Source: Tetraselmis striata
Lineage: Eukaryota; Chlorophyta; Chlorodendrophyceae; Chlorodendrales; Chlorodendraceae
Reading direction: 5' to 3'
Length of the DNA stretch: 64,000 nt
Assembly (NCBI GenBank): GCA_006384855.1
Contig: VCJN01000760.1
Coordinates: 1 to 64,000 of the forward strand
The stretch's first letter is position 1. Each line of letters starts with the position of its first letter. The position numbers and the translations under genes were made by a program. Shown one piece after another: positions 7,195-59,714 of this stretch. Under the pieces are notes generated by a model. The model was not told where the DNA came from. It ran no database searches and worked only from the letters and a program-made list of their open reading frames with translations.

Positions 7195-8077
7195 CCTCCA
7201 CCTCGAACGGAAGACAATTGCGGAGCCAATACCCCGCCTTGTGTTGCATGCAATGCTTGAGCATGGCCCATGCGTGGTGATGCATGGCGTACCGACGGCT
7301 GGGCTTGGCAGATAGGAGCTTGCTCAGGCTAGCGTCCACCTCTCTCGTAGCTCCTCCGCCTTGCCGCGCATGTACGCCTGCACATACTATGACGATCCGA
7401 GCGGCACGTTGAGGACCGCGATGCCGTGATGGCCATCTAGCTCGGGCCACTCGATGTCGGCCGGAGCCTCACGCCGTGCGGCCTCCTTGTCTGCGCTGTA
7501 CGCCTGCATTTTGTCGAAGCGCACCTCAAGCCCCACGGACGCCTTGATGGACGTGCGGAAGGCGTGAAGAGCCGGCCAGAGGTGCTCCGGAAGGCCCACC
7601 AGAAACCCATCATCGGCGTTGAAGCGCGCCGCCCCGTCATTGACCTCCAACGTGCTGACACACTGCTGCACCACACACACTGATTCATTGTGACACACAC
7701 TGATTCACTTCGGGGTGAATCGCGACGCAAAAGGAAGTCGTGGCCAACGGTGCGCCTTGTTGCACGCCGTCCTCCGACCGCAGAGGGGCGGACCGGTCGT
7801 TCACGACCAGATACGAATCCGTGGAGAGGGAGGCTTGGAGCGCAGGGATGACATGGTGTAGTGGAGAGCAATCGATGTGGCGTTGGATGATGGTGCGGCG
7901 CCATGCCTCGTTGTATGCGTAGTTGCGAAGGTCGGTGTGAACGATGACGGCACGTGGGCCAAGCTTCTCGGCGATGACCCGGACGCCGTGGATAAGCATA
8001 GAGTCGCCCGCGGGAATGCCAACGCCGACCCATACCGCTACCGGGCGGGCGGGCATAGAACTGGTGTGAATTACCAA
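7195..8077 (-). pseudogene. Truncated reverse transcriptase fragment
   Basis: Two minus-strand frames together give an RT palm. The first (8077-7685) has a VGVGIPAGDS-like block, an HTDLRNYAYNEAWRR segment (D-x-x-N-A-[FY]-N type) and GVQQGAPL. The second (7698-7387) has FNADDGFLVG, corresponding to the catalytic x-ADD motif, then a GLEVRFDKMQ-type helix. Thumb-like sequence (a helix with HAWAMLKHC, then RNCLPFEV) runs to about 7200, where the palindrome begins. The frame shift between the parts coincides with a duplicated ~19-bp unit around 7670-7705 (TGATTCA...CACACAC). N-terminal and C-terminal domains are missing. It is non-LTR-like, but the clade is uncertain. Confidence 0.7.
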
Positions 8078-45539: not shown

Positions 45540-46339
45540 TAGACACAAAAAGCAGCCATAACAATAGACCAAAAGAAAAGTAAGATACCATCCCTCCCAC
45601 TCCCCCCCTCCACCCGGGGGGAGGCGCCTCGGCCCCGCCCTACCCCACCGCCTTCGTGGTGGGCGCGGGAAGGAGCCGAGGCCCGGGTCCACACCTGCCC
45701 CCCGTGGGGGGCGATCGCGGCGACCCCGCGCATCTGAAGCCCCGCCCGCAATCGAGATGGGGGCCCGACCTGTATGCCGCTTGAAATTTGAATTTCGCAT
45801 GTTCTGCATAACTACTGCTCTGACGGAGGTGTCCATCTTGGACCGGCCGGCGACCGACACCCATCCCGACCCCCGTCCCTGTCCCACTGACCCCCTCGCC
45901 GTCCCGGCGCCGTACCTACAGGCACGACCACCGGCACGGGCCCGGTATACAAATAGTCACCGTCATGCCGCTACGCGGTTGCGCAGTGCGCCCCCTCGCG
46001 GTGGCCTAGGGCCACCGCTCTGCCAGCAGGGAGTACGCCGCGAGGCCCTCCCTGCCCCCCGATATGACCGCGGCTGGCTGGTGGCATCGCCCCACTGCCC
46101 GCGGTTTCCCCTACCGCGGACTGGAGTGCCCTGCCGCGCCGCGCTGAGTACTTTACCCGCTTATCAACCCCGTGCCGCCACACGGCTAATCCGCTGCCGT
46201 ACCGTCGGGCATCGCGGCACGCCTGTGAGCGCGTCGCGATCCCTCTGGACGGCTATTCTATTGCATCCCCCAGGAGCCGCCATCTTCTACCGCCTCTCGC
46301 TCCCTATCTGGATCTGCGCACCCCCCCCCCCCAGCACCG

Positions 46340-48867
46340 CCATGCCCGAAAAGGAGCACGACCGCAAGCGCGGCGACCGCGGTAGGCGAGGTGGCGGGGC
46401 GTCAGGCCGGCCCGCACACGCAGTGGTACACCGGACCGGCCGCCCTGTCCCCCCTGGTGCTGCACCGCGTCGAGGTGGTGCCCCTTCTGGTCCCAGGCAC
46501 GGTGGGCGTGGGCGCCCTGCTGCGCGCTCCGCCGCGGCCCTCCCCCTGCACCCCCTAGCAGCTGGCCAACGTGAGCCCCCCCACCCAGCCCATGCGCTAC
46601 TCGCTCCCGCTGGACTATGGGCCCAAGACAGCCCCCTCCGCTTCCCCAATCTGGGGAACATCGCGTCCCCTAGTGGGGCTGCTATCCACGCGGTGCACGT
46701 TACGTGCCGCGCTACGTCGGACGACGATGAATTTGTCTGCCTCCGCACGGGGCGCTCCCTCCGTTACCCCCGCCTAGTGGTGTGCCACATTAACTCCTTG
46801 ATACACGAGGCCGCTTCTAACCTTGGGGAGAGTCCCCGGTATCTAGAACTAGCGGAGCCCGACGTTGTGTTCCCCCCCGCGGAGAGCAAGGACCATCAGG
46901 CTGACGACCGCCACCAATCCCTTACGGTCCGCTTTTGCCAACGCCACCGGGCGCACCGCCTGGTGGCCCAGGGCATCCTTGGCGAGAGTACCCCTATCTA
47001 TTCCGGGCCCTTCCAGGATCACCAAGAGCCTGGGGCCTCTGATGGGCCTTGCCCACCCTCCCCGTCTAACCCCCCGGCGGCCTTCCGCCCGGCAGCTCTC
47101 CTGGACGGGACGACGCCCGCCCCCCTGGTATGGGCGGTGACGCACCCCGCGTGGGATGAGCCCACCGATGAGTCTGCCGCTGCAACAGTCTATGTCTCAG
47201 TCGACCGCCCGGATGGCCAGTCCCTGCTCGCGGGCCTCTCGCCGCACGGGACCCGCACCCTCTTAGCCATGCTTACCCTCCATGCTCATGTTGCGCTGGG
47301 GGGGCACCGGGACTCCGACGACCGCACCAACGGCTCGGTGTCTATGCTGCTAGAGTCCCTACACTTCACTCGGATCCACAAACGCCTGGATAAGTCATTC
47401 GCGGTGTGCGCGGTGCCTACGCTAGACATGGCAGCGGACCTCACGGAGTTTGGCTGCCTCTCCCTCACCGCCCCGGGCCTGGGCCCCATACTTGTCCGCT
47501 TCGACGACAATGCCCCCGCCCCGCCGGCCAACACGGCGGAGCAGAGGGCCCAGCAGGCGCTTCAGCGTAAGGCCCTCCTCGGCCCACACACCCTCCTCTT
47601 CCTGTCCCCGGGTATGGCCCTACCGCTCGAGATTCTGGAGGATCTAGTGGCTGTGTGCCTGGTGGTCATGGCTAGGGGTCATACCCTCGCTACTGTGGGC
47701 CGGCCGGATGCTACCCGCTCCCTCAGCGCCCCCCTCCGGGACGGACGCAATACTTCCCTCCTACAGCGGATCCGCGCCTCCCTGGTTGCCCGCTTCCCAA
47801 ATCCAGAGGCCACCCCCTGGCATGCCGTGGGCCTAGACTTCCCGGTGGCAGTCAATGTGCGTCGTGGCCTCGTTACACGGGACCCCCCCCCCCCCCGAGC
47901 GGCATCCCAGGTCTATGTCGTACCTGTGGCGGACGGTGGCCGCCAAGGTGTCTCCCATGCCTTCTTCCCTAGCTCGATCCTTGGAGAGCGGGTGGCCACC
48001 TCCTGCTCGGTCACCTGCATGGACAGGGCGGATTTTCTCACTATCCTGGCGGCACAGGATGAAGGGAAGTCTGTTTTCAGTTCTGACTTCCTGGCTAGCT
48101 TTGGTGCTGCAGCGCTTCGTGCAGGCCCCGCCCGCTATGCCCACTGGGAACCCCTGGTTTCTGGGAGCGTCCCCAGCAAGCCGGTGATATTGAGGGTGAC
48201 CCCGCACCCCAAAGCATTGGCCGCCCTCAGCAGAAGGCGGGCGCGTGGGGCGCCGCCTGTGTCCCTCCCCAGATACGCTAAGGCGCATCACCGCTCGAAC
48301 TTCATTCAAGCGGTGGGCAACCTTGAGTGGGACCCCACCCCCACGACGCTACCCACCCCGAGTCCCGGCGGAGAGACACCATACGCCAGTGACCCTTGGG
48401 TGCCCCCCCCCGCACCGCTGCACACATACCCCGACCACCCTGCGGGCCTCGTTGCAGCCCTCCTTGCCCGCCTCCTGCCCCAGACTGGGCACCAGGCTCC
48501 TGGCGCTGCCGCCAACCCTGGTGCGGGCCCTAATGCTGGTACTGTCATTGGCGGGGGTGCACCCCCTATGACGACTCCGGAGACGACTACTGGGCCTGAT
48601 GCCCCTGCGGCACGACCTGCATCCCCGCCCGCTCTCTCTGCCTCCTCTAAGCGGGATGCCAGGGAGATGGACGGCGGCGAGGAAGAAGAAAGTGCCCCCC
48701 GCCATCCCTCTGAGCGCCCCCCAGCCGTCGCTTCCGCTACCAATCCGCGTCAGGACCTGGATGATGACGAACTCGAGCTCGGTACCGCGGAGGACGAGAT
48801 GGAGGAGGATGACTCCCACATCGACGCCGCTAAGGCCTTGGACGATGTTCCGTGGCGGCGCGCATAG
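46340..48867 (+). CDS. LINE ORF1-like protein, unknown fold
   Basis: The frame is open from 45757, but the first ~190 codons look non-coding. MPEKEHDRKRGDRGRR at 46342 is a better start. Between about 46420 and 46560 the third frame reads more like protein (ending at a TAG), so an indel probably lies near 46600-46640. From 46640 on the frame is well behaved. It has a globular middle, a Pro-rich segment and a strongly acidic C-terminus (DLDDDELELG...EEDD). A C tract lies at 47883-47896. No zinc knuckle or RRM is visible. By position it should be the RNA-binding ORF1. Confidence 0.55.
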
Positions 48868-48889
48868 CGCCCCCCGGGCCCGTGACCCA

Positions 48890-50628
48890 ATGCCCACTCT
48901 CCACCCAACAATGCCCCGCCCAACCCCATTCGGCAGGTGCCCCGCAGTCCTCTCTGACTCGGGATGTAATACACCTGATGCCGCCCCTCTTGCCAGGGGG
49001 CAGAGTGCTCTAGGTTTCCCCCCGCTTCTTGCTACCGACACCCCCGAGGGGCCCCCGTCCCTCGGTTCTGTTCTCCCACCCCCTCCTCGCGGCGGTAGCG
49101 CTGTACCTACCCCGGCCGGTGAGGGGCACTGCCCACCGTGGGGTGCCCCCGGCTCCCCGGCGTCCGGAGCAGTCACGGACCACCTCGTAGTTGCGGATGC
49201 CCGGCCTATTACCCCACACATATGGTATGCGGACACGCCAGATACCCTGCCTACCTGGCTAGCCACGTGTGCACCTGACTCATGGGTTCGTCCCCCTGTG
49301 GGCCCGCCAGCCCGCATGGATGTCCTTAACCGGCACTACGCCGCCTGGGGCTCGTATTTGCCCGGCGAGGTGGCTGATGCCACCATCGAACACTGGTTAC
49401 TGAACACCACACTACCTCGGGTGGAAGGCATGGTACACATCCCCGCTTATAATTATATTGCTGGCCGCGTGGAACCGAACGGGAGGCCGCGGCCTGGCCG
49501 CGATACGGCCTCGACCACCCCCTAGCTGCCCCGGGAGGGGTGGTCCTCACCCTCTACTCCTCTAACCACTTCATGACGGCCCACCTCTCGGCCTCTGGCC
49601 TACGGTGGTGGGATGGTCTGGGCCTCCCGGTCCCTGACATGGCACATCGCTTTCTCTCTGTGATCCGGGACGCGTACACCCACCATGACCGGTGGCCGGC
49701 GCCCCTAGCGGACAAGATTATACTATGCCCTAGCCCGCGGCAGATTGATGTTGACGCTCACGGCCGGCCCGCCCCATGGTCCTGTGCAGTACACACGGGC
49801 TTATGCAAACTATGCGTCCTTGCTTGGGGACCGGATACGCCCCTCCGCTACACCCAGGAGGACGTGTATGCCCTCCATAACATCATCCTACGGTCCGCCC
49901 TTAGTGGTGTTCCGGGCACCGCTGACGTAGATGCCATGCTCCTCCGTATTGCGGCCCGCCCCTCCCTGCCCGCTGCACATTATGCCTGCGCCTCCGGCGG
50001 CTCCGTGCCCCTTCGCCACCTGGCCGCCCCCCCTCCTGCCGACGTCGTCCACGTATCGGACTCCGACTCTACACCCGCTTCCAGCCCCTGCTGCTCTCCG
50101 GCTCAACCCGTCCCCCCTCGGCAGACGCCACCCCGACAGTGGGATCTGCCACGCCGCAATGGCCAGCCTAGTGCGGGCTCCCCACCGCTCTGTGCACGCG
50201 AGGAACCGATACCTCGTGATTCTTCTACTCAGACCCAGCCCTCGCCCCGGCTCCATGCACATGCCGGGCAATGCCCACCCGAGCCCGAGTGCCTGCGGAC
50301 CCAGTCCCCGCAGGCCCCTGACCGGGTGTTAACCCGAAACCAGCGCCGCCGCCTAAGCCGCGCCAAGGCGGCTGAGACCAGGGCTCACAACAAGCGTGTT
50401 AAGGAGGGTCTTCGGCCGCTGAGCGACTACTACCCTGGCCTTCAGCCCTCTCGCGCCCCCGCCCCCCGCGCGGAGCCGACCCCTAAACGGACGTTCGTCC
50501 CGACCTCCTTACTCCACTACGGGGTCGCACCGATGCTGTCTCCTCCCCGGTCGGAGGACCCTCACCCTGGTTCCGACTATGACGACACGGACACCCCAAA
50601 CTCTCCGTGCCCTGCATGCCTCTGCTAG
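48890..50628 (+). CDS. LINE protease-like region (Ulp1-like)
   Basis: The frame to 49525 ends with a helix-rich block (YLPGEVADATIEHWLLN). After a frame change near 49500 it continues at 49540 with SSNHFMTAHLSASGLRWWDGL and then APWSCAVHTGLCKL. His10, Asp25 and Cys82 of the second frame are in the H-D-C order and spacing of C48 peptidases. The expected Gln six residues before Cys is not present, though a Gln lies 14 before. A cysteine protease is plausible and has been described in some large LINEs. The C-terminal part is Pro-rich, then basic (RNQRRRLSRAKAAE). Confidence 0.5.
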
Positions 50629-52360
50629 GACACCGCCTTCTCCGACTGAGGACCCCCACTCCGCCCATGGCACCCCCATTGACGTCCTGACATTGAACGT
50701 GGGGAAGATGGGCCCTGGCTCCTCTACACCGATGGACCTACATGCCCTCCTTGACGTCCCCACCCCACCGGCTGTCCTACTCCTCACTGAAGCCCCCCCA
50801 GAGGGACGCACCGCTGCGCTCACTGCACTAGTGAAACACTACGGATACACCGTGTACTTCCGCCCTTCCCCTCCCCCGGCGGACGATGACTCATATTTGC
50901 CACGACGTGCGCAGCGGTCTGCCCGGAAGCGGGGACACGGTGGCACGATGCTGGCGGTTCACCGCTCCCTGGCGCCAGCCGCCTTTGTTCGCCCCTGCCC
51001 TCCGCCCCCGGCCGCTGTTCGAGCAAGGGGCTATGCAGTGTTACTCACGGTGCCGCACTCCACCTCGGTCCTCCTGGCCTCCGTCTACTACCCCTTTGAG
51101 TCCTCGGGCCGCAAGGCCCTCACACAATGGATTGCCCAGCTCGAACAAACACATCCCGATGCTGATATCATTGTTGGCGGGGACTGGCAAGGTACTGACC
51201 GCCCGGTGGATACCGACCCCCTGCGCCCACTGGCGGAGCTGGGGTCGGTTGGCCCTACTTACTTTCCGTCGACGACGCCCCATATGGGCCGGTGCATAGA
51301 CTACTTTATCGGACGCCCGGCGCCGTTGTCATTAGATTGGCGGGGACAAGCTACTGCCCGAGCGCTGCCCACTGGCTTTGCTGACCACAGTGCAGCGCTC
51401 CTACGATGCCACCTCCCGAACTTCCACCCGCCATTGGCCGTAGATGCCCCCCGACCGACTCGGGCCGCGAAACCTAGCAAATTGGTGCAACCCATTCCGG
51501 CCCAGGCCCTCAAACAATGGCGAGCCAACGTTTCCCCCTCGATTCATGCCGCCACCGATGCCGTGACATCCGAATTGTGCTGGGTAGAGACCGCTTGGAC
51601 CCCTGGTGGAACGACCCCAGAATATGCAGCTGCCTCGGTAGAATTGGCGGCGGATACCCTTACCCGCGCACTAATAGATGCTCATGCCCAGGCCATGGTG
51701 GATCTCCCGCATACCGACAGACGCCCTGCTCCCTGCGGCGACTGCGAATCCTACCTCCCCAGGGTTGGCAAAATCAGACACCGACACATAGTGGGCGCCC
51801 GCGTTGCTGCCCAGGCCTTACGCACCGTTGGCCTCATCCATCCCCTCCCACTACGTGCGCCGTGCTACGCCCCCATCGTCCTCGATTGGGACGCCGCCAT
51901 GCGGGCGCACTGTGCAGCGCTGAGTATTGACCCCGACGACCCTGCTGCCTCTTTCCCTTCCCCTGCCGGTGAAGGGCAGAACCCGGAGACCGCCGTAGCT
52001 GCGGAGGGTCTGCTCGGAGTACTCCGGGTGCTAAAGTGTGCCGCTAAAAGCCTCGACCGCGACTTCTCCAAAATTCGGAGAGACCGCTTCAACTCCTACA
52101 TTAACAAAATGGCTGTCTCGCAGCCCGCCCGTGCCCTCTCGATTCTACAGCGCAGGGCCGGCCATCATGTCGCCCTTGCTGCAGTCCGAGACCCTGTCAC
52201 CGGCGTGGTACACACCACCCCCGATGCGGTTAAAGCTGAGGTCCACCGTGCACAGCAAACAGCCCTCGCTCCCAGCCCAGAGGTACACCCCTCAGCACCC
52301 TATCCATGGGAGTCCCCGGGGGCACCGGACCCCATCACGCTTCCTGGTCCGGCCTCCCCG
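50579..52360 (+). CDS. LINE apurinic-type endonuclease domain
   Basis: The frame has APE/exonuclease III landmarks in order: DVLTLNVG (Asn), LLLTEAPP (Glu), ASVYYPF (Tyr), IIVGGDWQGTDRP (Asp; the usual Asn of GDFN is Gln here), CIDYFIG and FADHSA (Asp-His). This enzyme nicks target DNA to prime reverse transcription. The domain covers roughly residues 35-275. A linker of ~300 residues follows, and the frame then changes near 52330 into the RT frame. The start overlaps the previous frame by about 50 bases. Confidence 0.85.
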
Positions 52361-55086
52361 GGCCGCTGCTGCGGGACGGGTACCAACTGTCTGTGTATAC
52401 GGATGCGGTCTCGCGCATCCCCAATAACAAAGCCGCGGGCCCCGACGAAGTCCCAAGAACTATCCTGCGCTGCATGCCACAGCCCTTCCACGATGCACTG
52501 GAGCTCCTGTTCCGGGCGATGCTGCTCAGCCAGCACACTCCCAACCCATGGCTACATAGCCATACCTGCCTCCTATATAAAAAGGGCGACCCGCTCCTCG
52601 TGGACAATTACCGTCCCATTAGCCTGGCCAATGCTATATACAAATTGTGGACGACTATCCTTACTGACCTCACCTCTGATCTGGTCACTAGGAAGGGCAT
52701 ACTATCCCCCCTCCAGGTTGGCTTCCAGAAAGGCAAAAATGGCGGGCAAGCCGTGACCACTCTCTCCCTAGTGCTAGATGATGCCATGGCAGGCAAAGGC
52801 GACGCCTACCTGGCGTACCTCGACTTTAAGGGGGCATTCCCCTCTGTTAACCACACCCAATTGATACGAGTTCTTAGAGACCTGGGACTTCCCCAAGACC
52901 TGATCTCTATAGTCCATACCATATATTCCGGCTCCCGGACCTCGTTTATAACCCCCTGGGGCTTAACGGATACGGTGCGGGTGGAGAGTGGCACCCTACA
53001 GGGTGATCCACTCTCCCCCCTGCTCTACCTCCTCATGACGGAACCTCTCTCCCTGTGGTTGGAGAATGGACTCCGGGGATACATTCCCGTAGCCACAGTG
53101 AACGACCCCGACTCGGACATCCCCCACGTCATGTACGCGGATGATACCACCCTCATTGCCAGTGACCTACAAAGCCTGCAGATCCAACTCAATAAACTCA
53201 ATGCCTTTTGCAACTGGTCCGGCATAAAGCCTAGCATATCTAAATGCGTCACTACCGCGTGGGTCACCGCCATAGCCCATCTGTCCATACGCGACCGTGA
53301 GGAGGCAGTCCGGAGCCGCCTGTCCCACCTCACGTTAGGCGGGCACGGCCTCCCTCCCATGGGACCCCACGGCTGCCTCAAAGGCGGATTTCTGGGGGTG
53401 CAGCTCCCTGCGGACCTGTCCCTAGATGCCGCAGTCGCCTGGGCCAAGACGGTGATGCAGGATGCCCTCTCCCTAGTACGGCACACCACGCTGCCAGACG
53501 GGGTGCGACATACTCTAGTTCAATATGCCACTAGGTCCAAGCTGCGCCATACCTGGGCCATCGCGCACCTTGCCCCCTCGGACATAGCGGCCATGGATGC
53601 AGCTATGGCTAGCCTGACCCGACGCATATTTAAACTCCCACGTAGCTTCCCTACCGCGGGTCTACATGCTCCCGCTGCGGAATTAGGCCTGGGCGTGCCC
53701 TCACTTATGTCGGACTACGTCGGCGCTCTGTCCACTTCCTACACCGATATCCTAAACAATACTGGCCCCATCGGCCGCCTCGCGACGGCCGTGCTCCGAG
53801 CCAGGGCCCCGTGCTACGCCCGGTGGCCGGCCAGTGCTGCCCACCTGAGTGAGGCTGGCCCCTTCTGCCGCGGTATCGCGATCCTACGCCAAGCGGGCGT
53901 TTATCTCGGAGGAGACGCGGACAGACTTTGGCAGGGCAACGATATTGCCCGGGAGCTTCTCTCCACCGCTACCACTGCCTTCCCTATGACATGTGTGGCC
54001 TCAGCTACGGCGCGGGCCGCAGCTCTCCCCCATGTTGAGCTGCTCCCGGCCCGCCTTGCGCCCCTTTGGGAGGCGGGCCTTACCACCTGGAAACAGCTAC
54101 TGACACCTTCGAAGTGTCCATCCCGCGTGCTCCATGTCACGATTAAAGGGTGGACAGATGCCCTCCTGGATGGTACCGTCCCGGCATGTGCCAACACCTT
54201 ACGTACGCGAAAGGCTTGGGTGTTTCTCCAGTCCCTTCTGCTCTCGGACTCTGAGCAGGCACGGACTGCCCTATTCCCCAGCCTCCTAAACGTACGAGCC
54301 GTTGATAGTCTCAGAATCCCCCCTAAAGTCCACTCACGGTGGAGACGGGGGCCTCTTCGACTTCCCTCCCTGGTCACCTGCCAACGGGACATGGCTGCAG
54401 CTGCGGTGTCCTCTAGCGCCCCAACCCCGCCAACACACCGTGACGATGTGTCTTCCAATCATGTTACACCTGACCGTATGGAATTCTACTTTCCCCCGAC
54501 CGTGAGGAGGCAGCTGGCCCGTACCCCGGTCCTACATCGGGCCCGCCGCACGAGGCCTTCCCCCCACCTAGGCTCTCCCCCTCGACGGAAGCGACGCCGC
54601 TCGCCGGAGACGCCGCCCTCCCCCCAGCAACCGGCCTCTCTGCCCCCCTCCCCGCCCCCTGGTATACCCCTCTCGGCCTCGCCCCAGGCTGAACACTACC
54701 CAGAACCATGTGACGTGACCAACCTACCACTACATGGCAGGGTCCGGCAGCGGCGTGGCAGGCGCTCCGCAGCGATCTGCCTGGCAAGGGCCAAACAGGC
54801 CCGATGCCGCGAAATATACGCCGCACGCCGTTTAGGGAGGACAGCTGTTCCCCGCCCGATACCCCTGCAGCCCCTCCCGGTCTACAGCCAACGGTTTAAT
54901 ATCGCCCTGAATCCTATAGATCCGGATCGGGACGCCCCGGCTACATGCCATTATGCGGCGTACACAGTACACACAGATGCTGGGCCCAGAGTCCGGATCT
55001 GTGACCCGGTGGGCCGGGCTGTGACCCAACGCACTCTCACCCCGGAACGGTATCGATTTGCCTGGCAGCACTACTGTCACCAGTGA
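52306..55086 (+). CDS. LINE reverse transcriptase
   Basis: The RT palm is complete: NNKAAGPDEVP, VDNYRPISLANAIYKL, LAYLDFKGAFPSVNH (catalytic Asp), SGTLQGDPLSPLLYLL and MYADDTTLIASD (catalytic Asp pair). A thumb region with NAFCNWSGIKPSISK-type helices follows. About 900 codons are open. After the thumb come ~300 residues of unknown function and a basic, Pro-rich stretch (PPRRKRRRSPETPP). A TGA at 55084-55086 closes the frame, and the methyltransferase frame begins 66 bases later in the same frame. Readthrough or a lost sense codon could join them. Confidence 0.92.
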   Translation: MGVPGGTGPHHASWSGLPGPLLRDGYQLSVYTDAVSRIPNNKAAGPDEVPRTILRCMPQPFHDALELLFRAMLLSQHTPNPWLHSHTCLLYKKGDPLLVDNYRPISLANAIYKLWTTILTDLTSDLVTRKGILSPLQVGFQKGKNGGQAVTTLSLVLDDAMAGKGDAYLAYLDFKGAFPSVNHTQLIRVLRDLGLPQDLISIVHTIYSGSRTSFITPWGLTDTVRVESGTLQGDPLSPLLYLLMTEPLSLWLENGLRGYIPVATVNDPDSDIPHVMYADDTTLIASDLQSLQIQLNKLNAFCNWSGIKPSISKCVTTAWVTAIAHLSIRDREEAVRSRLSHLTLGGHGLPPMGPHGCLKGGFLGVQLPADLSLDAAVAWAKTVMQDALSLVRHTTLPDGVRHTLVQYATRSKLRHTWAIAHLAPSDIAAMDAAMASLTRRIFKLPRSFPTAGLHAPAAELGLGVPSLMSDYVGALSTSYTDILNNTGPIGRLATAVLRARAPCYARWPASAAHLSEAGPFCRGIAILRQAGVYLGGDADRLWQGNDIARELLSTATTAFPMTCVASATARAAALPHVELLPARLAPLWEAGLTTWKQLLTPSKCPSRVLHVTIKGWTDALLDGTVPACANTLRTRKAWVFLQSLLLSDSEQARTALFPSLLNVRAVDSLRIPPKVHSRWRRGPLRLPSLVTCQRDMAAAAVSSSAPTPPTHRDDVSSNHVTPDRMEFYFPPTVRRQLARTPVLHRARRTRPSPHLGSPPRRKRRRSPETPPSPQQPASLPPSPPPGIPLSASPQAEHYPEPCDVTNLPLHGRVRQRRGRRSAAICLARAKQARCREIYAARRLGRTAVPRPIPLQPLPVYSQRFNIALNPIDPDRDAPATCHYAAYTVHTDAGPRVRICDPVGRAVTQRTLTPERYRFAWQHYCHQ

Positions 55087-55152
55087 GATCAGCCTCCTCA
55101 CACCTGGAGTACCCCATCTTTTCAAGCCTCCTACCTAACTGCCCTCAGCAGT

Positions 55153-56640
55153 ATGCTCCTCCGGTACTCAACTACAGCGCCTGAGGACCTCCCACAGGGG
55201 CGTAAACCGAATCTGCGCAACCACTGGGCTATACCACTGCCGGTGATGCAGGCCCTGCGGGACTGCTGCTCTACACGCACTGAGCTGTTTGCTAGCCCGC
55301 TTAACTGTCACATCTCTGCCAACTCTACGTATTGCTCTGCGTATGCGGAGGATAGTGCCTTTGGTGCCATACCAGATGCGTATGCCCACATATGGACCGG
55401 GTCCTGTATCGCCAACCCGGAATACGTCCCGGAAGATATGCGTGCGGCCATGCTCCATGCACTGCTCTCTTGTGATGCAGCGGGGCACACGCCCTTCCTA
55501 TGCGCACTCGTCCTTCCCCGATGGAAGGGTTCCCCCCACCTCCATGCCCAGATCACCTCCCACCCGGAAGTCCACCTCTTGTGCACCCTTCCCCGCAAGG
55601 CGTTCCACTTCATCCCCTCCGACCGCTCCCCAGAGGACCCGACCGCTGCCGAGAGCACCCCTGCAGCGAAATGGCATGTGGACATCTATTTGGTTGCTAA
55701 TCCCGCGGGCCTGGACACCTACTTTGACCTAACGCAGGCAGAAACTTCTCTAGCCACCGCTCTCCGCTCCATGAGCGGCCAGTTGGACCTACACGTCGAG
55801 ATGTTCCCCTCCGCCGCGACCCCTCCCTCCCGAATGGAGCCCCCCGCTCGAGCCGGGCAGCCTTCGGCTCTACACCTACGGGGCCTACCCCAGCGCTGGG
55901 CTGGACCGCAAAGCCTACACGATGACCGCATGCGCTCCCCACACTACCTCCCTAAAGACAGAGGGCTTGTGGTCCTGGAGCTGTGCGCCGGCATCGGCAC
56001 TGGCCTAGAGGCTCTCCTCCGAACTGGCTACCGTGTCTCTCGATACGTATGGGCCGATATTAACCCGGATGCACGTCAGGCTGTTAGCCACCGAATAAAA
56101 CGGCTACAGCACCGCTACCCGCAGCTCCTTTCCTCCCAGGCTGTGGAACGTTGGGATTCCTCCTTACCTGGGAATATAAACTCTATCACCCCAGAAATCT
56201 TACGTACTGCGCTCCCCCTGGGGGCAGATGTGGTGGTCGCTGGGCCTCCATGCCAGCCCTTTTCCGTCGCAGGGACGCGTAAAGGGCTAAGAGACGCCCG
56301 CAGCACTGCGCTGGGTAGCGCGGTGAATATAATATCCCACCTGATGTACACCCAACGGGATGGGGTGGCATATGTGCTCGAAAACGTCCCTGGTGCCGCG
56401 AAATACCCGGAAGTCCGCTCCCTTTTGGGAACCGGTATAGTGGTGAATGCCCCACCGTGCGGCTCTCACGCCGCCCGGAAGGCTATATTTTGGCACAACC
56501 TCGCATTGCCGGGAGCGTTGGAGAGTGCCTATGCGCGCCTCCCTCGTGCCCCGACACCTCGATCAATACTGCCCTACGGGCAGCAGGTATCTCGCTGTGG
56601 CAGACGCAAACACTACGATTGGGTTTCAATGTTACTGGTT
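55153..56640 (+). CDS. PCIF1-like domain fused to C5-cytosine DNA methyltransferase
   Basis: Residues 40-190 match the PCIF1 (cap-adjacent adenosine N6-methyltransferase) family: LFASPLNC, YCSAYAEDSAFG, TGSCIANPEY, an Ala/Leu helix, ALVLPRW and WHVDIYLVAN. The catalytic NPPF of that family reads NPEY (88-91). Residues 272-450 are a C5 methyltransferase: motif I LELCAGIGTGLEAL, ADINPDA, motif IV AGPPCQPFS with catalytic Cys367, motif VI VLENVP and a motif VIII-like AARKAIFWHNL. The last resembles DNMT3. The remaining motifs are in the next frame (from about 56640), so an indel splits the enzyme. It may methylate the element's DNA copies or RNA. Activity is unproven, and NPEY may be inactive. 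Confidence 0.85.
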
Positions 56641-59087
56641 GTGACCCGGTCAACGCAGCGGGCCGGGACCAGGTTGTACTACCTAAGTTTGTATGCTACC
56701 CAGGCTCCCATGCATATCGCGTACAGCCTAATGGCCGCCCCGCGCTGGGACTGATGCACCGAGGCCCCCTGCTAAGTCCCCTAGTGGAGCCTGATGCGGA
56801 TGTACGAGAGGCTATGATGGGGATGCACGTGGGGGATACTGCCCACCCTGACCTCTCTGAGCCTGCCCGTCGCCACCTCTTGGGGCAGTGCATAGATGTT
56901 AATCAACTCACCTGGATATTCTCCAACGCAGTCTCAACACCTGGCCCCGCATCAGACCGCTGTCGGGGTGACCCTCATACCGCTGCGACGCCGCGCCCTC
57001 CGCCCTCCGCCGTGGCCTGTGCGGGCACAAAGCCTCAGCATGTGACCGGATGGCTGCGGGCGACCTACCCCGCCCCCGACCGCCCTCGGGAGCCGCTCCC
57101 GGCCCCTGATGCCCCGTCCCAGCCGGTACCTCTCCCCCCGTCGGCCCCACCCTTTGTACACAGATGGGTTGCTAGCACATTTGCGTACACAGATGGCTCG
57201 AAACGAAAGGGGCACCGATTTCTGGGCGCCGCTGTTATACACGCGGACACGGGCCACTGCACCCGCTTAAATGCCACCGGAGTGGGGGTCAACAACACGA
57301 TCCTAAGGGCTGAACTTACCGCGATACATCAAGCGATACTGCTACACCCGCACAAGCCTCACCTGCGTATCCTCACGGACAGCCAAGTCTCCCTCCTGAA
57401 GGTGGCGGGGTTCTGTCGCCAGCCGGAAGCCTACAGGCTAGACATCCACCGCCCCCTCCTCCAGGCCGTCGCGCTGGCGGTGGGGCGCCACCTAGACACA
57501 CCGCACCACATGCTTACACTGGGAAAGGTACCGGCCCACGCCGATGTGCGAGGCAACGAACTGGCGAACGCAGCTGCAAAGTCTGTAGTAGCGGAGCTGC
57601 TAGAGGAGCAACCCCCTGACCATACATCCCCGATACTGGACTATGATGTTGGCAGGGTAGACTATCTGCCACGGTTCTGGCCCCGCATTGCCAGCTGCCC
57701 CTCAAGGTCCCACCCGCTGTCGGACGGCCCCGAGGCCCCGACCGCGGAGGACTCCCCCCCTCGCCCCGTCCCTACCCCGCGGGTAGTGGCAAAACTAACC
57801 CTCCCTCGGGTCTCTAGGTACTCGGCGGGACCCTCCCTCTATCGGTCCCTGATCGACCGCTCCTTGGGGGATGAGGGCCTGACAGCGCCTCACCTGGTTA
57901 GCCTCTTCCGCCAGCTCACCCGCATGCCCAAACCCGGTGACACAGGGGGCGGGCGGCTCCTCCTCAAATTCCTGCACGGGCAGTTTTACACTGGTAAACA
58001 CGCCAAGTTATACGGACACTGCGAAAGTGAGGCCTGCCCACATTGCGGGATGGACGACTCAAGCACCCACCTGGCTGGTGGGTGCCCTAGGTTTGCGGGG
58101 TTCTACATCGATCGGCATAACGCTATTGTCCGCCTTATTAGCTTAGCCCTCCAGCGCAGCTCCCCGAAAGGGGGGGAAGCTCACTGGGCTGGCTGCTTCA
58201 AGCTAGTGTCCTGTGATGCGGGCTGTAAAGATATACATCTGCCCACGGACGGGGAAGAATATGTACCAGTATCACCCTGCCAACCCCCTCCGGGACACGC
58301 ACAGCCCGATATTCGGCACTACGATGCGTGCCTTGACCTACATGACTACCCGGAGAGCCGCCCGGATGTGGCGGAGTGGCTGGGCGCGCCCGATGTGCCC
58401 CGGGACATCCCTCCCTGGGTCCTGCCAACAGCGGACCTTCTAACACTTCGAGACCAAGGCTGTGGGGCCCGCCCGGACATTGTATGTGCCCGGGGGGTCC
58501 CCGCGCTCCCCGACCCTAGGCCTGGCGCCGACTTCCACCCCCAGGACTGTGACCTCGTCCTGGTGGAAGTCGGCTGCTGCGCCTGCCTGAGATGCGCCGA
58601 TAAGAAAACAGCGAAAGAGGCTAAATATGAGCCCCTCCTATCCGCCCTCCGCACCCGCTGGCGCTCCGCCACGCTAGTGGTTGTCCCGGTGGGGGTAGCG
58701 GGGTGTCTACTTACCGAAACGGAGGCAGCCCTCAGCTCGCTGCTGGCGGCTGGCTCGACGCGCTCGGTGCGGACGCCGCTCCGAGGCCTCCTGCAGGATG
58801 TACGACGGGTTACATCGACCCGCCTGGTACAGCTGCTTAGCCATCGGAGCGCGCATAACAGACAAACCCTTACCTCCAAGCGTCAACAGATGAAGGCCTC
58901 GAAGACCCCAAGACCATCTCCCCCCGAAGCCCTTCCCCCCCCCGCCCCGCCTGGACCGCGTTGTGCCGAGACCCTGTGCAAGCGGAAGACGGACGCGACG
59001 AGAATGCGCCGCCCGCAGCAGAATAAACGTTCGGTTATACATCGGGACGGGCGCCCGCCCCGACCGGCCCGCCCTAAGCCGCCCTGA
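56457..59087 (+). CDS. C5-methyltransferase C-terminus, RNase H, zinc motif and restriction-like endonuclease
   Basis: From about 56640 the frame supplies the methyltransferase C-terminus (LPKFVCYPGSHAYRV, then LLGQCIDVNQLTWI, the motif X region). RNase H follows at about 57170-57590: YTDGSKRKG (Asp), LRAELTAIH (Glu), ILTDSQVSL (Asp). The fourth position reads GNELAN where GNE-x-AD is usual, so Asp is Asn. A zinc motif CESEACPHCGMDDSSTHLAG...C lies near 58020-58090. The C-terminus has restriction-like endonuclease features: RPDIVCARG, DLVLVEVGCC, a Lys-rich KKTAKEAKYEPLL and VVVPVGVAG. This PD-(D/E)xK fold occurs in R2-type and Dualen LINEs. The end is basic and Pro-rich. Confidence 0.88.
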   Translation: MRLSRRPEGYILAQPRIAGSVGECLCAPPSCPDTSINTALRAAGISLWQTQTLRLGFNVTGCDPVNAAGRDQVVLPKFVCYPGSHAYRVQPNGRPALGLMHRGPLLSPLVEPDADVREAMMGMHVGDTAHPDLSEPARRHLLGQCIDVNQLTWIFSNAVSTPGPASDRCRGDPHTAATPRPPPSAVACAGTKPQHVTGWLRATYPAPDRPREPLPAPDAPSQPVPLPPSAPPFVHRWVASTFAYTDGSKRKGHRFLGAAVIHADTGHCTRLNATGVGVNNTILRAELTAIHQAILLHPHKPHLRILTDSQVSLLKVAGFCRQPEAYRLDIHRPLLQAVALAVGRHLDTPHHMLTLGKVPAHADVRGNELANAAAKSVVAELLEEQPPDHTSPILDYDVGRVDYLPRFWPRIASCPSRSHPLSDGPEAPTAEDSPPRPVPTPRVVAKLTLPRVSRYSAGPSLYRSLIDRSLGDEGLTAPHLVSLFRQLTRMPKPGDTGGGRLLLKFLHGQFYTGKHAKLYGHCESEACPHCGMDDSSTHLAGGCPRFAGFYIDRHNAIVRLISLALQRSSPKGGEAHWAGCFKLVSCDAGCKDIHLPTDGEEYVPVSPCQPPPGHAQPDIRHYDACLDLHDYPESRPDVAEWLGAPDVPRDIPPWVLPTADLLTLRDQGCGARPDIVCARGVPALPDPRPGADFHPQDCDLVLVEVGCCACLRCADKKTAKEAKYEPLLSALRTRWRSATLVVVPVGVAGCLLTETEAALSSLLAAGSTRSVRTPLRGLLQDVRRVTSTRLVQLLSHRSAHNRQTLTSKRQQMKASKTPRPSPPEALPPPAPPGPRCAETLCKRKTDATRMRRPQQNKRSVIHRDGRPPRPARPKPP

Positions 59088-59128
59088 CCTTGTTCGTGTG
59101 AACGAGGTTAGGGCGCGCGACAGCTCGC

Positions 59129-59182
59129 ACGGGACAGTTCTGACCTGGCAGCCCTCTGTTATACAGAGCTTGGCTGTCCCGT
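59129..59182 (+). other. Structured hairpin in the LINE 3' UTR
   Basis: ACGGGACAG (59129-59137) pairs perfectly with CTGTCCCGT (59174-59182). An inner stem CTCTG/CAGAG around a TTATA loop stacks inside. It lies 42 bases after the last stop codon. LINE reverse transcriptases often recognise a 3' UTR structure, so this is a candidate template-recognition element. Confidence 0.6.
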
Positions 59183-59347
59183 AGTATCAGCTGCCCCCCG
59201 CCGGATAATTGTCCGTCGGTACATTTATTTATGGGTTTAGTTAGGGCTCTAGCGTCGGACCCGCGGGCCGCGTGATGCCCTTTAGCCACGCCAATTCATT
59301 TATGATTGTAATGTATCTCTCTCTCTCTCTCTAGACACAAAAAAGCA

Positions 59348-59714
59348 TCCATCTTCCGGTTTCGCTGCGTTACACGCAGCGATTAACTGTCTCGTAACAT
59401 GTTGCGAGCAAGGTCACCCCATGTTGTTCAAGACCACATCCGGCTCACCACCCGTGTGTGATATTCGCATCCGTACGTCCGTGCGTCATCATGTCAGATG
59501 GAGAAAAACCCCTCGTGGAGCCGACGCTTGACTCGCTACAAGCAAACATGAAGGCCCAGTCTACCTTGCGGCGCGAGCTTGCAACAAAAAATTGCAATTG
59601 CAATTGAAATTTGTTACAACGTCGAGTATGCTGCATCCACTCGCTAAGACTGAGTTGCTCTTAGGGCATGCTATCTCTAACCACAGTGGGGAACACGAAG
59701 TGTTATCACAGCTC
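59348..59714. other. No supported gene
   Basis: Unique sequence follows the LINE target duplication. ATTGCAATTGCAATTG near 59590-59606 is a short palindromic repeat. No coding or RNA feature is seen. Confidence 0.5.

Follow-up and report, generated by a model that had tools for sequence, protein, structure and literature searches.

A dual-endonuclease LINE, whose ORF2 polyprotein holds a DNMT3-like C5-cytosine methyltransferase (DNMT) as a standing part in the order PCIF1-like domain, DNMT and RNase H, is recognized with high confidence in the window, i.e., the whole 64,000-nucleotide stretch of Tetraselmis striata DNA analyzed here. The function of the domain is a less certain matter: we tentatively propose that it acts in cis at insertion, and identity and cis mechanism, taken as one explanation, fall just short of an even call.

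Organization of the Element

The first-pass annotation had placed a C5 methyltransferase between the reverse transcriptase (RT) and RNase H of a LINE. Pfam confirms this arrangement, with the order APE, RT, PCIF1_WW, DNA_methylase and RNase H on the + strand (Table 1); the PF00145 match proposed there as a check lies at 56173-56403 (E 9.6e-10; 38.8 bits, cut-off 22). A sibling in the same genome (C2687) aligns with the window copy at 99.25% identity over 13,743 columns; its ORF2 is open across 3505 codons (3505 aa), and RT, PCIF1, DNMT and RNase H are all matched there by Pfam. The window ORF2 is damaged, its in-frame stop being situated at 55084-55086 and a one-base indel near 56548 cutting the DNMT domain itself. 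No match was found for ORF1 in a Pfam scan at E 0.01.

The element had also been described as bounded by a target-site duplication, which is exact in C2687, flanked on both sides by the 13-bp sequence ATTCCCTTATGTA, and imperfect in the window copy. Here the + strand has the word TAGACACAAAAA at two positions only, 45540 and 59332, at the two edges of the LINE, and the repeat has, by eye, one indel and one mismatch; 34 unrelated bp separate the 5′ duplication from the aligned start of the LINE. An ungapped 20-mer test gave 13/20 for this duplication, a value reached by 36 of 200 random pairs and thus not above random.

Table 1. Features of the LINE copy in the window (all coordinates refer to the 64,000-nucleotide stretch).
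Feature	Position	Strand	Basis or remark
5′ target-site duplication, imperfect	45540..45559	+	common word TAGACACAAAAA
ORF1, 1099 codons stop to stop	45568..48867	+	reading frame
LINE copy, ~13.74 kb, (TC)n tail at end	45594..59331	+	aligned to sibling C2687
ORF2, broken in window copy	48572..59084	+	four frame-shifting indels and one stop
Possible cysteine-protease-like stretch	49561..49815	+	H, D, Q, C spacing by eye only
APE endonuclease	50690..51337	+	PF03372, E 1.6e-6
Reverse transcriptase	52582..53268	+	PF00078, E 3.5e-26
PCIF1-like methyltransferase-fold domain	55129..55557	+	PF12237 (PCIF1_WW), E 4.3e-16
DNMT3-like C5-cytosine methyltransferase domain	55960..56945	+	PF00145, motif map from intact C2687
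RNase H	57180..57587	+	PF00075, E 1.7e-9
CCHC zinc knuckle, before restriction-like endonuclease	58035..58085	+	motif and A3 profile
Restriction-like endonuclease (R2 type), core PD..E stretch	58467..58592	+	A3 profile, motif map
3′ target-site duplication, imperfect	59332..59352	+	common word TAGACACAAAAA

Two endonuclease types are assigned to this single LINE because of its APE match and its R2-type C-terminus. Pfam at E 0.1 lists no APE in the long frame of C2687; the corresponding region is homologous to the relatives P0010, P0013 and P0014, and P0013 has PF03372. At the C-terminus, the CCHC knuckle and the PD...E pattern are kept in relatives, and a five-row profile of this region (A3) retrieved from the PDB the R2 retrotransposon proteins 9nl3 (E 1.7e-5) and 9dou (E 2.6e-5), the zinc knuckle matching 9nl3 more strongly and the restriction-like endonuclease (RLE) stretch matching it weakly on its own.

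This combination recalls the Dualen/RandI group of LINEs, for which Kojima and Fujiwara in 2005 are reportedly the source. A cysteine protease is a Dualen feature; Pfam scans of the window and C2687 gave no match over the protease-like stretch, and a Peptidase_C48 domain is present in P0033, a more distant relative. An upstream APE, a C-terminal R2-type RLE and RNase H are the Dualen/RandI features found in the window LINE, the likeness being the presence of APE and RLE in one element together with RT and RNase H, according to the part of the group definition available (PMC4640811). The window LINE adds DNMT3-like and PCIF1-like domains between RT and RNase H, neither being mentioned for Dualen/RandI in that part of the source (PMC4640811). 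Titles and abstract starts of the literature (most subscription papers lying outside reach) contained no dual-endonuclease LINE with a DNMT, and no PCIF1-like domain in LINEs.

The DNMT3-Like Domain

All the motifs read in the first-pass annotation could be placed within the domain: motif I (ELCAGIG, 55978-55998), IV (AGPPCQPF, 56239-56262), VI (LENVPG, 56377-56394), VIII (AARKAIFW, 56470-56493) and the C-terminal block (SNAVST, 56922-56939). The DNMT3-like type suggested there holds in part. The best sequence match of the DNMT profile (A1) is DNMT3A (E 4.9e-11), and the closest match of the fold predicted for the domain of the relative P0001 is DNMT3; motif IV, by contrast, reads PPCQP vs. 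SPCND in solved DNMT3A, and the PCN of DNMT3 is absent. A DNMT3-like fold with catalytic motifs is thus predicted.

In six pairwise comparisons among four elements, identity amounts to 44–51% for DNMT (only the first half of the domain in the case of P0010), 39–43% for RT, 38–45% for PCIF1 and 23–35% for the spacers, values that argue for long selection on the DNMT domain. Selection of this kind might concern a structural or nucleic-acid-binding module whose catalysis is now unimportant, as the lost catalytic cysteine of P0007, the departure of the PCIF1-like neighbor from NPPF, and the changed motif I of Copia relatives and, partly, of the LINE row P0004 might suggest. We consider this improbable, since the motif IV cysteine is kept in 10/11 LINE rows, ENV in 11/11, and motif I is near the DNMT3A form in nine of the ten LINE rows reaching it. 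In P0007 itself, the catalytic PPC reads PPG.

The PCIF1-Like Neighbor

Directly before the DNMT lies a PCIF1-like domain, which falls partly inside the interval of the first-pass annotation and went unseen there. PCIF1 is the cap-specific adenosine methyltransferase (CAPAM), NPPF being its catalytic motif. The LINE domain is akin to it in fold and sequence, but has NPEY instead (55414-55425), aligned with NPPF. NPEY is found in 16 of the 21 LINE rows with letters at this position, including all eight that bear a DNMT, and five farther rows differ; NPPF is retained in a host-like PCIF1 gene of the same genome (L044, C1756). These replacements suggest that catalysis has been changed or lost in the PCIF1-like domain of LINEs. 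A second PCIF1-like match with NPPF was observed at L045 (C2385; PF12237, 79.8 bits).

The adjacency raises the possibility that the DNMT acts jointly with the PCIF1-like domain on RNA, likeliest the element's own RNA or an RNA-DNA hybrid, to stabilize the RNA, to handle its cap or ends, or to mask it. The cap-specific activity of PCIF1 points in this direction, as do the copies, which show no DNA-methylation scar, and RNA methylation has been put forward for SymbioLINE in the accessible part of that work (de Mendoza 2018, PMC5890265). We nevertheless regard an RNA role as unlikely: DNMT3, which acts on DNA, is the closest in both sequence and fold, DNMT2 (tRNA C38) scoring lower by profile (best E 1e-8 vs. 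4.9e-11), and the two domains are not bound together, because PCIF1-like LINEs without a DNMT exist.

Copies in the Genome

A genome search with the 3′ end of the LINE gave four near-full matches and 27 places of only 46–126 bp. DNMT and PCIF1 matches are present in 4/4 long copies found; the DNMT is therefore not there by chance, a point that the first-pass annotation had proposed to judge from other copies. Two of the copies (C653 and C2172) have an identical internal start and flanks alike at 99.47% over 15.6 kb, and this common start point and surroundings identify them as allelic or duplicated forms of one insertion. At least three DNMT-bearing insertions are present in the genome, such counts being lower bounds, as 123 candidates out of 337 were scored in the PF00145 genome scan. 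The broken state of the window copy would fit a host gene that had landed by chance in a single LINE copy, or a misassembly; this reading is refuted by the domain in all long copies from three insertions, by related proteins from other sources at 40–52% identity and by the RT-tree branch described below, and its probability is negligible.

Among the 11 short 3′-end places inspected out of 27, L092, L093 and L095 look like recent, extremely truncated insertions, because they are 100% alike over 91–95 bp in different surroundings, with direct repeats at the ends of L093 and L095 (by eye). Two repeat families (L094, L097 and L098; L099-L102), each 89–97% alike over about 360–400 bp, contain the last 56–98 bp of the LINE and the TC tail at 83–86%, and may be SINEs or tails of other LINEs.

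Relatives and Origin of the Domain

Searches scoring the best 7999–8000 protein candidates by shared words found at least 12 proteins with a related DNMT, at least 10 of them LINE-like (P0001 and P0005-P0009, without an RT match, being called LINE through PCIF1, RNase H or endonuclease parts). P0002, P0003 and P0004 present the order RT, PHD, PCIF1 and DNMT, the PHD of P0002 and P0004 lying below the Pfam cut-off; a PHD finger was not detected in the LINE family of the window. In an RT tree of 36 rows, all unnamed relatives with no reference Dualen sequence and with three short rows (P0034, P0043, P0045) excluded, six rows labeled DNMT-bearing (P0014 only by equating it with P0008) and the truncated P0013, which ends soon after RT, form one branch (100/100) amid PCIF1-only LINEs, one of which by label, P0022, ends soon after PCIF1. 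The domain has thus been long conserved in one LINE clade. With a local profile, no DNMT was detected in the remaining listed RT relatives (P0013-P0131), some of them truncated. The T. striata genome also contains at least 11 loci where PCIF1 and RNase H are only 353–454 bp apart, vs. 1623 bp in C2687, and which therefore lack room for a DNMT (a lower bound, as the scan scored 59 and lists only C2687 among the four long copies). One of the DNMT-free elements, C1704, reads by sequence as RT, a PHD-like cysteine pattern (by eye), PCIF1 and RNase H. From these sequences, one gain of the DNMT between PCIF1 and RNase H is the simplest reading; losses may have occurred instead, depending on the root of the PCIF1 group. 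The RT relatives P0038 and P0041 have an N-terminal SET domain (PF00856, E 8.4e-6 and 2.6e-6), and therefore other chromatin-enzyme domains occur in the wider LINE group.

Homologous DNMT domains are also found in other retrotransposon orders. Three fully read Copia polyproteins of the same genome (C663, C444, C2193) have one, by reading, between the Gag knuckle and the integrase, and others occur elsewhere, in P0011, which Pfam assigns to Copia, and in P0012, assigned by Pfam to Gypsy (24% identity, E 6e-6). Long ORFs (1359–2483 aa) of Ty1/copia type by reading were observed at L015-L024 (C663, C444, C2193, C1051, C2518), and motif I is degenerate in several Copia-type DNMT domains of the genome. 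Of 12 further 1.5-kb pieces at PF00145 places (L029-L040), 11 strongly match the LINE DNMT.

A tree was obtained with 18 ordinary methyltransferases as outgroup, and the retrotransposon domains fall in one group (100/100), L029, L031, L033, L034, L036 and L040 being labeled Copia by likeness only. Since this tree does not extend to cellular DNMT3 and the branch of P0012 is very long, descent of the LINE, Copia and Gypsy domains from a common ancestor within transposons is suggested rather than proven. Two other sources were considered and rejected. For a prokaryotic or viral one, seven viral and 30 prokaryote loci match parts only (at most query residues 7-235, 25–61% identity) in pattern scans that need a conserved peptide and are not exhaustive; named viral fold matches are mostly cytosine methylases, with one Pithovirus PCIF1-like protein. 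For a free-standing cellular twin, a profile search of proteins of ~191–609 aa, a range below the longer cellular DNMT3 proteins, gave at least 10 close hits (E ≤2.4e-62), separated by a gap from the next at E 9.5e-9; among the close hits, P0140 has a Copia-type Pfam domain in common with P0011, and P0141 a protease-like stretch at its start (by reading).

Other C5 methyltransferases were also observed in the genome. L027 (C1993) and L028 (C2272) are Polinton-like by eye, with a PolB-like ORF of ~1200 aa, beside which C1993 has a bacterial-type C5 methyltransferase ORF of ~325 aa; the listed PF00145 matches include at least five others whose frames are 325 aa long. L025 (C2009), a 630-aa C5 methyltransferase ORF, bacterial-looking by eye, on a 134-kb contig, is a possible contamination or transfer. 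As to the host, the light-harvesting proteins of the genome belong to the chlorophyll a/b type (best match 9vfj), pointing to a probable alga whose plastid is green-type.

Related elements have been published, as far as the accessible parts of the sources go. SymbioLINE-Dnmt of Symbiodinium is likewise a LINE with a coding-region C5-cytosine methyltransferase and target-site duplications, but its enzyme is of an orphan class and located in ORF1 (de Mendoza 2018, PMC5890265), whereas that of the window LINE is DNMT3-like and placed in ORF2, after RT, in a dual-endonuclease element. SymbioDIRS-Dnmt3, KnitGypsy-Dnmt3 and Copia DNMT3 elements also have a DNMT3-like domain in a retrotransposon polyprotein, and belong to orders other than LINE (DIRS, Gypsy and Copia; PMC5890265; PMC12344493).

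Possible Role and Significance

In the mechanism we propose, the DNMT domain would act in cis while target-primed reverse transcription is under way or immediately afterwards. With the polyprotein still in position, it would methylate cytosines of the newly synthesized element and of the adjacent target. The new DNA would then resemble settled host DNA and may elicit less damage signaling, repair or attack, with later silencing as a possible price. In relatives, docking on chromatin would fall to the PHD finger, and the PCIF1-like domain, its active site being altered, would grip the ends of RNA or DNA instead of methylating. This cis role is held only tentatively because the genome's own copies are too young, with too few differences, for a dN/dS ratio, and no CpG decay was seen in them (nine of the 33 C>T singletons fall at CpG, vs. 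24.5% expected).

Silencing of transposons by cytosine methylation is known from many eukaryotes, and the domain might act in a self-limiting way or in trans, silencing its own new copies or competing elements with host damage blunted; slowed retrotransposition is among the ideas in the accessible part of de Mendoza 2018 (PMC5890265). The genome contains Copia elements with a DNMT side by side with LINEs that lack one, which argues against such silencing, and we judge it very improbable. Returning to the cis role, a wider picture, possible though speculative, would be a distinct DNMT3-like lineage moved among LINE, Copia and Gypsy elements, which, in one clade of dual-endonuclease LINEs, joined a polyprotein that already had PHD and PCIF1-like domains, so that the element would read and write marks at its landing site during insertion.

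DNA methylation is best known as a host weapon against transposons. That a LINE has retained a methyltransferase within the enzyme of its insertion across deep divergence suggests some step in which the element benefits from methylation. With the gain apparently single, in one RT clade, and related LINEs free of the DNMT found alongside, the genome offers a natural control for methylation with vs. without the domain. The relationship to the Copia and Gypsy domains also matters for the question whether DNMTs of retrotransposons have been taken repeatedly from hosts or passed among transposons. A LINE may thus chemically mark the DNA that it makes or that receives it.
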